Source: Celeribacter neptunius
GTDB taxonomy: Bacteria > Pseudomonadota > Alphaproteobacteria > Rhodobacterales > Rhodobacteraceae
DNA: 64,000 nt
NCBI RefSeq assembly: GCF_900113955.1
Contig: NZ_FORH01000001.1
Coordinates: 63,811 to 127,810, forward strand
Reading direction: 5' to 3'
Below the pieces are notes generated by a model. That model was not told the origin of the DNA and did no database searches. It saw nothing but the letters and a program-made list of their open reading frames with translations. Shown here piece by piece: positions 37,686 through 41,161 of the stretch. The position numbers and the translations under genes were made by a program. The stretch's first letter is position 1; every line of letters begins with the position of its first letter.

Positions 37686-38588
37686 ATGAGTAATTACGCA
37701 AATTTGCCGGCCCCCAGTCCGGAACAGGGGCTCAATCGTTATCTTCAGGAAATCCGCAAGTTCCCGATGCTGGAACCCGAGGAAGAATATATGCTGGCCA
37801 AGCGCTGGGTCGATCACGAGGACAGCCGCGCCGCCCATAAGATGGTGACCTCGCATCTGCGGCTGGCCGCCAAGATCGCCATGGGCTATCGCGGCTACGG
37901 GTTGCCGCAGGCCGAGGTGATCTCTGAAGCCAATGTCGGCCTGATGCAGGCGGTGAAACGGTTTGACCCGGAAAAGGGCTTTCGTCTCGCGACCTATGCC
38001 ATGTGGTGGATTCGCGCCTCGATCCAGGAATATATCCTGCGGTCCTGGTCGCTCGTGAAACTCGGTACGACTTCGGCGCAGAAGAAGCTGTTCTTTAACC
38101 TGCGCAAGGCGAAAGCCCGGATCGGCGCGTTTGAAGAGGGCGACCTGCGCCCGGAAAATGTCAAACGCATCGCCACGGATCTTGGGGTGACCGAGGATGA
38201 GGTGATCTCGATGAACCGGCGCATGTCGGGCGGCGATGCCTCCTTGAATGCCACGGTCGGCAGCGACGAAGAGGGCGCTGCGCAATGGCAGGACTGGCTC
38301 GAGGATGAAAGCGCCAACCAGGCCGCCGATTATGAGGCCAAGGACGAGATGGACACGCGCCGCGCGCTTCTCGCCAGCGCCATGGATGTGCTCAACGAGC
38401 GCGAAAAGGACATTCTGATGGAGCGTCGTCTGAAAGATCAGCCGGTGACGCTCGAGGAATTGTCGGGCAAATACGAGGTCTCGCGCGAACGCATTCGTCA
38501 GATCGAAGTGCGGGCTTTCGAGAAACTGCAAAAGCGCATGCAGGAGCTCGCGAAAGAGCAGGGCATCCTCGAAACCGCCGGGGAATGA
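37686..38588 (+). CDS. rpoH: RNA polymerase sigma factor RpoH (sigma-32)
   Basis: Heat-shock sigma factor, 300 residues. Regions 2.1-2.4 (GYRGYGLPQAEVISEANVGLMQAVKRFDPEKGFRLATYAMWWIRASIQEYIL in segments, about 59-115), the RpoH box QKKLFFNLRKA (about 126-136) and region 4.2 [17 protein letters not shown] (near 270) are clear. The first 60 residues match RpoHI rather than RpoHII of Rhodobacteraceae. A sigma-32-like promoter stands upstream. The long 5' leader (about 50-80 nt) could contain structure for thermal control. Confidence 0.96.
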   Translation: MSNYANLPAPSPEQGLNRYLQEIRKFPMLEPEEEYMLAKRWVDHEDSRAAHKMVTSHLRLAAKIAMGYRGYGLPQAEVISEANVGLMQAVKRFDPEKGFRLATYAMWWIRASIQEYILRSWSLVKLGTTSAQKKLFFNLRKAKARIGAFEEGDLRPENVKRIATDLGVTEDEVISMNRRMSGGDASLNATVGSDEEGAAQWQDWLEDESANQAADYEAKDEMDTRRALLASAMDVLNEREKDILMERRLKDQPVTLEELSGKYEVSRERIRQIEVRAFEKLQKRMQELAKEQGILETAGE

Positions 38589-38823: not shown

Positions 38824-39834
38824 ATGACACAATCCCCCACAGACCCGCAAACCGGGACAGATGCCGGCCCGCTGCGCATTGGCGTGCTGGGCGCATCGCA
38901 TTTCGCGCTCGAACATATGGCACGGGCCATTCATGAGGCCGAGGGGGCGGTGCTGGCCGCTCTGGCGACATCCTCGCTGGAAAAGGCGGCGCCGTTTCAG
39001 GCCTTTGCCCCGGATCTCGAGGTGTTTCTCGACTATCAGGCGATGCTCGCCTCGAATGCCATCGATGCGGTCTATATCCCGCTGCCCAACCACCTCCATG
39101 TACACTGGAGCCTGAGGGCGCTCGAGGCCGGCAAACATGTGCTTTGTGAAAAGCCGCTGGCCGCGACAGCGGGGGAAATTGACGCGCTCATCGCCAAGCG
39201 CGACGAAACCGGGCTGGTCTGCGCCGAGGCCTATATGATCGTGCATCATCCGCAATGGCAGCGGGTGAAGGCGCTTCTGGCATCCGGTGCCATTGGCGAG
39301 CTGTGCCGGGTCGAGGTCGGGTTTTCCTTCGACAATTCCGCCGATGCCGACAATATCCGCAACCGGCCGGAGACCGCCGGCGGGGCCATGGGAGATATCG
39401 GCGTCTATGCCCTGGGCTGCGTGCGCTATGCCAGCGGTGAGGAGCCGCGCGAGGTGACCCATGCGGATATCACCTATGAGAATGGCGTTGATGTCACGGC
39501 CGAAGTCTCGGCGCGCTTTCCCTCTTTCGATTACCATGGCTATGTCTCGATGCGCATGGCGCCGTTTCAGGAGGCGCGGTTCCATGGCCGCAAGGGCGTG
39601 ATCAAGGTGGCTGTGCCGTTCAACGCCGGTGTCGCGGGCATGGCGGCGCTCGAGATCACCGATGCCGATGGCGTGATGCGGTGCGAGGCCTTTCCGACCG
39701 TGCGCCAATATGTCTGTCAGGTGGAGAATTTCGTGGCCTCCGTGCGCCGGGGCGTGGCCTATCCGTGGACGCTCGAGGATGCCAGGGGCACGCAGGCGTT
39801 CATCGATCAGGTGTTCGCGAAAAGCCGGGGCTGA
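38824..39834 (+). CDS. Gfo/Idh/MocA family oxidoreductase
   Basis: A protein of 336 residues with N-terminal NAD(P)-binding domain (LRIGVLGASHFALEHM, about 17-32) and the family motif GKHVLCEKPLAATAGEI (about 104-120, EKP with catalytic Lys), then the C-terminal substrate domain (GGAMGDIGVYALGCVRY, about 187). Members oxidise or reduce sugars and inositols; the substrate here is unknown. ATG at 38824 has AGAGGAGGT. The gene is followed 13 bp later by an FNR-type box. Confidence 0.87.
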   Translation: MTQSPTDPQTGTDAGPLRIGVLGASHFALEHMARAIHEAEGAVLAALATSSLEKAAPFQAFAPDLEVFLDYQAMLASNAIDAVYIPLPNHLHVHWSLRALEAGKHVLCEKPLAATAGEIDALIAKRDETGLVCAEAYMIVHHPQWQRVKALLASGAIGELCRVEVGFSFDNSADADNIRNRPETAGGAMGDIGVYALGCVRYASGEEPREVTHADITYENGVDVTAEVSARFPSFDYHGYVSMRMAPFQEARFHGRKGVIKVAVPFNAGVAGMAALEITDADGVMRCEAFPTVRQYVCQVENFVASVRRGVAYPWTLEDARGTQAFIDQVFAKSRG

Positions 39835-39846
39835 CAGGACCCGCAT

Positions 39847-39860
39847 TTGACACGGATCAA
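39847..39860 (+). promoter_or_regulatory. FNR/FnrL-type box TTGAC-N4-ATCAA
   Basis: TTGACACGGATCAA fits the FNR/FnrL consensus TTGAY-N4-RTCAA in all ten specified bases. It begins 13 bp after the oxidoreductase stop. With a -10-like TAGGCT at 39883-39888 it would be centred about 41.5 bp before a start near 39895, the class II activator position. Confidence 0.55.
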
Positions 39861-39922
39861 GGTTGGGCCCTGCGACTCGGGCTAGGCTTTAGGTGTTGGA
39901 AAGGCAAGGAAGGGAGGTCGAC

Positions 39923-39988
39923 ATGAGAATGTCACAGCGCTCCGGCCAGAACAACGAGGAGGAACCGCCGATTCATCGCGGCCTCTGA
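39923..39988 (+). CDS. Possible 21-residue peptide
   Basis: ATG at 39923 with GGGAGG five bases upstream opens a 21-codon frame (MRMSQRSGQNNEEEPPIHRGL) ended by TGA. It is polar with an acidic centre, no membrane segment. It sits at the 5' end of the candidate RNA. A functional peptide is unproven; translation could instead act in cis. Confidence 0.3.
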   Translation: MRMSQRSGQNNEEEPPIHRGL

Positions 39989-40193
39989 CTTAGGTGATCC
40001 GGATCCGTGGAGGGATGTTTGGACACAGGGTCGAGGCAGAGGTGAAAGGAACCGCCGCATGGGTGCCGCCGATTGAGGCTGATGAGACCCCGGATGAAGC
40101 GAGACGGAGGAGCATGTGCCCCCTCGCTCAAAGGGCCGACACCCATCGCGGAGGGGACTATGGAGGCAAGTCCTTCTGGGAGGTAAGAGGTAA

Positions 40194-40223
40194 GGGCGCC
40201 CTGATCGGGCGCCCATGTTTTTT
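40194..40223 (+). terminator. Intrinsic terminator of the candidate RNA
   Basis: GGGCGCC (40194-40200) and GGCGCCC (40208-40214) form a 7-bp stem, followed two bases later by a run of T. No annotated protein gene precedes it within 350 bp. Confidence 0.85.
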
Positions 40224-40360
40224 GGGCAGGTGTAATCCCACAGATAGCTCTGCCACGGGGCTGGCGCGTAAATGTCGGGCTCTCGATGTGAGACGGTCCG
40301 ATGAGAGCAAGGCCATGCGGATGTCTTGCCGCGAGGCCTCATGACCTCCATATCAAGCGG

Positions 40361-41161
40361 ATGACGCGGTTCCTTATCCTGTTTTCTTATATCTTTGTCC
40401 TGTTGACCATGAGCCAGCCCGCGGCGGCGGAGAGAGCGGCCACGGAGAGATTGGCCACGCCGGTTGAACCGGAGGACGCGCGTTGCGTCATCCTGTTGCA
40501 CGGGCTGGCCCGTACCGACGCTTCGATGCTGGTGATGGCGCGTGCACTCGGCGCGGTCGGGTATCGGGTGATCAATCAGGCCTACCCGTCCCGCGATGCC
40601 CCGGTGGCGCTTCTGGCCGATCCGGCGCTGCGTGCTGCGCGGGCGGGCTGTGCGGCCGATCCGGCACCCGATGTGGTGACCCATTCGATGGGGGCGATTC
40701 TGTTGCGCAGTTTCGCCGCGGATCACCCCGATCTCGACTGGGGCAGGGTGGTGATGCTCGGTCCGCCCAACCATGGCTCGGAAATCGTCGATGTCTTTGG
40801 GGCATATGCCGGGTTTGCCGCGGCCAATGGTCCGGCCGGCTTGCAGCTTGGCACCGCTGGATTGCCCGAGGCGTTGCCGCCAGTGCCCTTCGAGGCCGGT
40901 GTCATTGCCGGAACCCGGTCTCTGAACCCGCTCCTGTCGGCCGTTGTGCCGGGGGAGGACGATGGCAAGGTCTCGATCGAGAGTACGAAAGTGGCGGGGA
41001 TGCAGGCGCATCTCACCCTGCCGGTGACCCATACATTCATGATGCAGAACCCGCAGGTGATCCTGCAGACCCTCGGCTTTCTGGACCATGGGGCCTTTGA
41101 CCCCGATCTGAGCGCCGCAGAGGCGCTCAGACGGCTGGTTCGGCTCGGGTTGGAGCCGTAG
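40361..41161 (+). CDS. Secreted alpha/beta hydrolase (lipase-like)
   Basis: A protein of 266 residues with a signal peptide (about 1-23, FLILFSYIFVLLTMSQPAAA). The hydrolase fold shows the oxyanion motif ILLHGLARTDAS (about 45-56), nucleophile THSMG (Ser about 109) and probable Asp and late His (TLPVTHTFM, about 226). Pattern is like PGAP1/lipase-family proteins acting on lipids. ATG at 40361 precedes the signal peptide; there is no clear ribosome-binding site. Confidence 0.8.
   Translation: MTRFLILFSYIFVLLTMSQPAAAERAATERLATPVEPEDARCVILLHGLARTDASMLVMARALGAVGYRVINQAYPSRDAPVALLADPALRAARAGCAADPAPDVVTHSMGAILLRSFAADHPDLDWGRVVMLGPPNHGSEIVDVFGAYAGFAAANGPAGLQLGTAGLPEALPPVPFEAGVIAGTRSLNPLLSAVVPGEDDGKVSIESTKVAGMQAHLTLPVTHTFMMQNPQVILQTLGFLDHGAFDPDLSAAEALRRLVRLGLEP

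Follow-up and report, generated by a model that had tools for sequence, protein, structure and literature searches.

A putative FNR-controlled, structured RNA of Celeribacter that carries GGAGG motifs and may act as a decoy of CcsR-type RNAs

The window analysed in this study is a 64 kb stretch of the Celeribacter neptunius genome, in which the gene order around the locus of interest is rpoH (37686-38588, an RpoH equivalog), a GFO/IDH/MocA oxidoreductase gene (identified through Pfam, ending at 39834), the putative RNA gene, a frame at 40361-41161 and a convergent gene for an M19 dipeptidase. The 40361-41161 frame, which separates the RNA from the dipeptidase, has no Pfam match and looks like an alpha/beta hydrolase. 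In the RNA locus itself (39847-40223, plus strand), an FNR box and a -10-like element are followed by seven GGAGG motifs, with an intrinsic terminator at the end. The FNR/FnrL-type box TTGACACGGATCAA (39847-39860, plus strand) is the sole TTGAY-N4-RTCAA within the 64 kb, where 0.14 are expected, and its centre lies about 40 bases 5' of the predicted transcription start. The initial annotation, made before any comparison with other genomes, had credited the box with all ten consensus bases; scored against the FNR consensus TTGAT-N4-ATCAA, it matches nine of ten. The core promoter, recognized by alignment and position, consists of a conserved GCGACTCG (39872-39879) and the -10-like TAGGCT (39883-39888), both on the plus strand, the latter reading TATTCT in several of the aligned orthologs. 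Judged from TAGGCT, transcription would start at about 39893-39895, which puts the box at about the class II distance, as had been proposed. A plain sigma-70 consensus scan returned no promoter at the RNA locus, which is expectable because the promoter would be activator-dependent. The previously noted terminator (GGGCGCCC-TGATC-GGGCGCCC and a T run, 40194-40223, plus strand) is present, its stem spanning 40194-40214 and its T run extending to 40223, and a stem of this form occurs in all 13 sequences that carry the locus.

These 13 sequences come from a DNA search of 195 genomes, which detected the RNA locus in 13 of 20 Celeribacter genomes and in none of the 175 others. A fourteenth genome, G015, contains a remnant directly behind rpoH (L079, 1501-1612), which is devoid of the oxidoreductase gene, FNR box, promoter and SD and retains the micro-ORF frame (MSRKTGSNNAEKPP..), a TGGAGGG and the terminator. 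We also searched with models of both halves of the RNA. The model of the branched module described below (R1), applied to 394 genomes of the family, recovered the C. neptunius genome with 114.5 bits plus nine weak matches (E 9e-4 to 0.097). Six of these were searched again and four alignments were inspected, in which most of the module was missing or the pairing was poor; on the basis of these four, all nine were treated as chance matches. On nine Celeribacter genomes (the seven without a match in the DNA search, plus G011 and G012), R1 gave nothing below E 0.31. The sequence model (R2) found, among the 195 genomes, the 13 known loci and the G015 remnant; another ten genomes, none of them Celeribacter, gave weak matches. 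Four of the ten were inspected and rejected: three consist of an FNR-like box before a protein gene, and the fourth (L081), which resembles a transposase gene, lacks a box. Neither model thus yielded a convincing relative elsewhere (R1 in 394 and R2 in 195 genomes). In eight genomes outside the genus (L099-L106), the 1500 bases beyond the dipeptidase gene contain neither an FNR box nor the terminator of the RNA, and a mobile element origin was discarded after no match was found among plasmids or phages. As far as these searches reach, the RNA is very likely restricted to Celeribacter. As a side observation, the FNR-like boxes in three other genera (L080, L082 and L083) precede protein genes, which encode an Hsp20 protein (Pfam), a Usp-family protein (Pfam) and, in L082, perhaps a polyphosphate kinase 2.

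All 13 aligned orthologs retain the FNR box. In 11 of them it is contained in the final codons of the oxidoreductase frame upstream, which mostly reads ..FDADQG-stop at its end, and conservation of the protein might therefore explain that of the box. Several observations argue against this. The oxidoreductase gene of C. neptunius stops before the box, and in L002 the frame is shifted, yet the box is kept; L001 and L002 both retain it although the oxidoreductase frame cannot account for it there. Furthermore, GAT and CAA each account for only 0.38 of the Asp and Gln codons, respectively, in these oxidoreductase genes, yet all 11 frames use precisely this pair under the second half-site; the frames come from related genomes and do not represent 11 independent events. 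The end of the oxidoreductase and the regulator site (38824-39860 in the window) share the same bases in those 11 orthologs. The exact pattern box-N11-GCGACTCG occurs in 13 of the 195 genomes, 12 times at the RNA locus and once before a Usp-family gene. C. neptunius encodes FnrL (equivalog score of 452 bits, cut-off 300). It also encodes three other Crp/Fnr proteins with an ExxSR helix, and because of these a Dnr-type regulator may possibly act on the box instead of FnrL. The comparison, with the box in 13 of 13 orthologs and an FnrL gene in the genome, thus supports the FNR-type control that the initial annotation had suggested for the RNA.

The view that no protein gene uses the locus is likewise supported by comparison, which points to a free-standing RNA. 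The longer plus-strand frames (39994-40344 of 116 aa, and others) either are short or extend past the terminator, and any frame through the conserved module is broken by its gaps of one and two bases. A leader or attenuator was considered and rejected: in four RNA-bearing relatives (L087, L088, L092 and L098) a gap of 45-78 bases separates the beginning of the terminator from the stop of the dipeptidase gene, which is convergent, and leaves no room for a gene between them, and no conserved downstream gene in the same direction was found among the RNA-bearing genomes compared. The earlier alternative of a translated leader is therefore weak, since there is no shared downstream gene and the micro-ORF has no coding signature.

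Micro-ORFs of 21, 5 and 8 codons had been listed for the RNA; all three exist, but only the first is conserved. The 5-codon ORF (ATG at 40059) is absent from the 10 other sequences in the module alignment, and the 8-codon ORF starts at ATG 40160, with another at TTG 40019; an 8-codon frame 4-9 bases after a GGAGG was found in no other ortholog. The 21-codon micro-ORF (MRMSQRSGQNNEEEPPIHRGL, 39923-39988, plus strand) has its SD and ATG in 12 of 13 orthologs, where its length ranges from 17 to 35 codons, and its ATG at 39923 is held in a predicted start-codon hairpin (GACAUGAGAAUGUC, 39920-39933, plus strand). Upstream, the predicted helix H1 (39894-39956, plus strand) pairs UGUUG..GGC at the 5' end of the RNA with GCC..CRACR in the middle of the micro-ORF; the first GGAGG falls into an internal loop of this helix. 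All 13 sequences form the eight outer pairs of H1, with one-sided changes only, of the G-U type, which are weak evidence for pairing, and the structure was itself predicted from these sequences. The retained SD and ATG, the matching frame that persists in the G015 remnant and a dN (0.29) below dS (0.52) would suit a small messenger or dual-function RNA with the micropeptide of 17-35 aa as its main product. We nevertheless regard this reading as very unlikely. The synonymous share of differences was 0.202, compared with 0.196 in column shuffles, of which 222 of 500 were as high, in a test that covered codons 1-16 in ten distinct sequences and with so few codons has little power; differences at the three codon positions numbered 159, 169 and 203, the third being only slightly higher. 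H1 pairing would account for much of the conservation, and L010 has lost the micro-ORF ATG yet kept the module. L012 and L013 show the reverse, with most of the module missing and the micro-ORF kept. In a dipeptidase tree their genomes group with G018, apart from G007, the genome of L010, so that the losses look separate.

The structured part of the RNA continues with hairpin H2 (39987-40032, plus strand), which forms around an invariant GGAGGGA and has a covarying stem. When each ortholog was folded alone (MFE), the terminal loop of H2 held GGAG in 11 of 13 and GGA in L005 and L009, and the energy of H2 was below the flank-shuffled mean in all 13, with 0 to 43 of 300 shuffles equally low. With H1, the start-codon hairpin and H2 taken as one set, seven pairs change on both sides; 9 of 500 shuffles and one slid control reach this number. 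The branched module (40059-40146, plus strand, 88 bases) is composed of P1 (40059-40067 with 40138-40146), a small P2 hairpin and a P3/P4 stem, and is present in 11 of 13 orthologs. Nine of its 22 pairs have changes on both sides, which none of 500 shuffles reached, whereas slid controls gave 0-3, a control that leans to the structure because the structure was drawn from the tested sequences; the number of further pair types was reached by 12 of 500 shuffles. RNAalifold returned the same overall design of the module, except that P3 was displaced by one; its covariation term was small. The C. neptunius module alone folds no better than shuffles (z +0.64), and with this single-sequence fold being unremarkable, the evidence for the module is the covariation. 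The whole RNA folds better than 100 shuffles (z -2.56). Overall, in the aligned orthologs H2 and the branched module covary. Rfam, searched at its gathering threshold, gave no family match to the RNA and only two tRNAs in the window; the best weak match in the RNA region scored 18.3 bits versus 75 required, and a known RNA family, FnrS included, was thereby rejected.

The apical part of the module is near-invariant in 10 of the 11 module-bearing orthologs, which is beyond the needs of GGAGG alone and could point to an ordinary trans-acting sRNA that works through other conserved segments such as the module loops, its GGAGG motifs being incidental or structural. We consider this unlikely: L012 and L013, which miss most of the module, keep five GGAGG.

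The seven GGAGG motifs within 271 bases are confirmed (starts at 39913, 39958, 40009, 40106, 40150, 40162 and 40179), but the expectation of about 0.5 given by the initial annotation was too low: shuffles of 39907-40200 yield 1.92 when dinucleotides are preserved and 1.28 when mononucleotides are. The excess over dinucleotide shuffles is therefore about 3.6-fold, as opposed to the 14-fold implied by the earlier estimate. Only 8 of 5000 dinucleotide shuffles contained at least seven GGAGG, and no other 271-base stretch with seven occurs elsewhere in the window on either strand. All motifs described here are on the plus strand. Site A (39913-39917), which is the SD of the micro-ORF, and site C (40009-40013), which lies in H2, are kept in 13 of 13 orthologs, while site B (39958-39962) and site D (40106-40110, in the apical part of the module) are kept in 10 of 13. 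Two extra motifs (40150 and 40162, within 40150-40166) are found in C. neptunius only. Just ahead of the terminator, 11 of the 13 orthologs have a distal GGAGG (40179-40183), or 12 of 13 if the motif at 254 in L011 is included. A GTG lies five bases after site D in 10 of the 10 orthologs with that site; its frames vary from 4 to 187 codons, and it was dismissed as the start of a protein gene.

Conservation of the motifs beyond chance, to which the initial annotation had tied its reading, is borne out by enrichment in each ortholog: all 13 have 4-7 GGAGG, versus shuffle means of 0.88-1.92 (p 0.036 or lower in each). Among eight representatives, chosen from the 13 orthologs in order to thin close relatives, GGAGG has the highest z of all 1024 pentamers (9.9, with 42 copies against 11.2 expected) and is the only pentamer with at least three copies in all eight. 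L011-L013 are without the motifs of sites B and D and carry others, at 83 and 254 in L011 and at 167 and 181 in L012 and L013. Since a lineage without B and D has substitutes, the number of GGAGG seems to be what is kept, and selection on this number is well supported by the comparison. In the predicted folds the unpaired fraction is 0.25-0.6 at site A, 0.34-0.80 at site C, 0.05-0.65 at site B and 0.23-0.29 at site D, the mean over the RNA being 0.32-0.41. Exposure of the motifs is thus uneven, with site D and often site B predicted as paired, which speaks against the decoy discussed below.

A candidate partner for these motifs is encoded in the same genome. C. neptunius has five DUF1127 genes, and behind one of them lies an array of eight tandem CCUCC clusters (L107, 1642-2005; contig C9 near 393199), six of which are 0.96-1.0 unpaired in open hairpin loops of the predicted fold. 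By its sequence and layout this array is of the CcsR/cuckoo (CIN1/CcsR) type; R. sphaeroides is reported to have four CcsR RNAs in a ccaF1-CcsR layout like that of L107 (PMC10253847). The motif TCCTCCTCCCTG is present 4-13 times in 19 of 20 Celeribacter genomes, with or without the RNA, a distribution that weighs against the sponge; outside the genus, 5 of 21 genomes have the CCTCC pattern. Separately, a second DUF1127 gene (L111, 1630-1740; contig C5 near 675939) is followed by CCTCCTCCC and a CCTCCC stretch. The RNA studied here does not look like a CcsR/cuckoo member itself: hairpins with CCUCCUCCC loops were not found in it, and CCTCC is absent from the C. neptunius RNA and present in 7 of 13 orthologs. 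Pairing of the RNA with the CcsR loop beyond GGAGG gave p 0.04-0.47 against shuffles and 0.06-0.54 against reversed probes, and favourable duplex sites exceeded all 60 shuffles in just 2 of 13 orthologs; L006, whose RNA has an insertion and measures 466 bases to the terminator, was analysed to 345 for the duplex-site count and to 430 for the complementarity test. The suggestion that the RNA is a sponge for CCUCC-loop RNAs is therefore upheld as to the presence of a partner array in the genome but not as to complementarity beyond GGAGG, which is not above chance.

Site A fits the 16S tail as well as or better than it fits the CcsR loop; in 11 of 13 orthologs its match to the tail spans 8-10 bases (p 0.004-0.13). 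This match, together with the facts that GGAGG is the SD core and that site C lies in a loop, would suit an RNA that serves free 30S subunits as a decoy or docking site, in which GGAGG would pair with the 16S anti-SD and titrate or park ribosomes at low oxygen. Such a role seems quite improbable to us: site A is the SD of the micro-ORF, which explains its 16S fit, the other sites with conserved flanks (GGAGGGA and CAGGGAGG) show no extension toward 16S, and one small RNA would presumably need ribosome-like amounts. A protein could also be the target. The GGAG in the H2 terminal loop in 11 of 13 orthologs recalls the CsrB-type layout, and the RNA might act as a CsrB/RsmZ-like decoy of a binder other than CsrA, e.g., a DUF1127 protein of the CcaF1 kind, for which the five DUF1127 genes would offer candidates. 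We hold this for unlikely as well, given that the enriched motif is the five-base GGAGG, for which we know of no specific binding protein. CsrA (PF02599) was not found in the one genome in question, C. neptunius, with 3 of 14 control genomes positive, which makes a CsrB-type sponge unlikely, and a sponge for CsrA in particular was rejected.

Taken together, the gene, its FNR box, terminator, structures and GGAGG enrichment, as well as the FnrL gene and the CcsR-type array, are supported by the sequence comparisons. The RNA is very likely real, structured and FNR-controlled, and the last two properties together are held with high confidence. With a CCUCC array in the genome, a GGAGG decoy becomes possible, and by analogy a decoy of CcsR RNAs is plausible; the most likely explanation is a new, genus-restricted, FnrL-activated regulatory RNA that serves as a GGAGG decoy. 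As a whole chain, i.e., an FnrL-activated free-standing RNA acting as GGAGG decoy of CcsR RNAs, this explanation is put forward tentatively. A free-standing regulatory RNA of about 330 bases would be transcribed when oxygen falls, activated by FnrL or a Dnr-type relative. Its successive folded elements, namely the internal loop with the SD, the H2 loop, the apical part of the module and the stretch before the terminator, would present GGAGG cores that pair with the exposed CCUCC loops of CcsR/cuckoo RNAs. Decoying may then relieve mRNAs whose SD is blocked by CcsR RNAs and thereby link low oxygen to the CcsR network. That decoying of CcsR RNAs is the main action of the RNA is somewhat doubtful, and the further-reaching picture of an oxygen-controlled mirror of the cuckoo RNAs, which would sequester the anti-SD CcsR array and free many mRNAs at once, is slightly less probable still.

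CcsR-like anti-SD sRNAs beside DUF1127 genes are reported to be frequent in alphaproteobacteria (PMC10253847). In searches of the open-licence literature, we found no paper on an RNA that counters CcsR-like sRNAs, nor one on an RNA that displays GGAGG behind an FNR promoter. If true, the proposed function would tie FnrL-bound sRNA promoters to the CcsR network and provide a compact test case for decoys that mimic the SD. Even without the decoy, the locus would represent a new family of structured RNA with covariation and an FNR promoter and without an Rfam match.

CsrB and RsmZ have many G-rich motifs, some of them in hairpin loops. Their motif is GGA, whereas that of the Celeribacter RNA is GGAGG, and their protein, CsrA, is missing in C. 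neptunius. CcsR, cuckoo and alpha-r14 (NfeR1) RNAs resemble the Celeribacter RNA in having hairpins that each bear one short motif, with several copies per transcript; they show CCUCCUCCC, whereas the Celeribacter RNA shows the complementary GGAGG. In S. meliloti, NfeR1 uses its CCUCCUCCC motifs to block a translation start (PMC10746234). Some sRNA sequences of Paracoccus denitrificans are reported to recur in Celeribacter (PMC5107571).

FnrS of E. coli is described as an sRNA directly regulated by FNR (PMC4263372). The likeness lies in the FNR box at a predicted class II distance and the FNR-type regulator gene that comparison assigns to the Celeribacter RNA and its genome, the difference in the lack of an Rfam match to the RNA region at the gathering threshold. 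FnrS is also shorter than the Celeribacter RNA and acts by mRNA pairing. In R. sphaeroides, FnrL ChIP-seq identified sites at the sRNAs RSs0019 and RSs2461, for which an effect of FnrL could not be established in that study (PMC4263372). RSs0019, later named Pos19, is a coding sRNA with a translated sORF, and its over-expression lowers the homologous mRNAs RSP_0557 and RSP_6037; direct binding of Pos19 to the RSP_0557 mRNA could not be shown in the same study (PMC5036791). RSP_6037 is ccaF1, the host of CcsR RNAs (PMC8307010). Pos19 differs from the Celeribacter RNA in its RpoE promoter, its length of 219 nt, its location between cxp and fadB and its reported occurrence in R. sphaeroides strains only, and resembles it in being a small RNA with an sORF and in having an FnrL site in its putative promoter region. 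An FnrL-bound Pos19 that acts on a DUF1127-CcsR locus would be no more than a suggestive parallel to the Celeribacter RNA.
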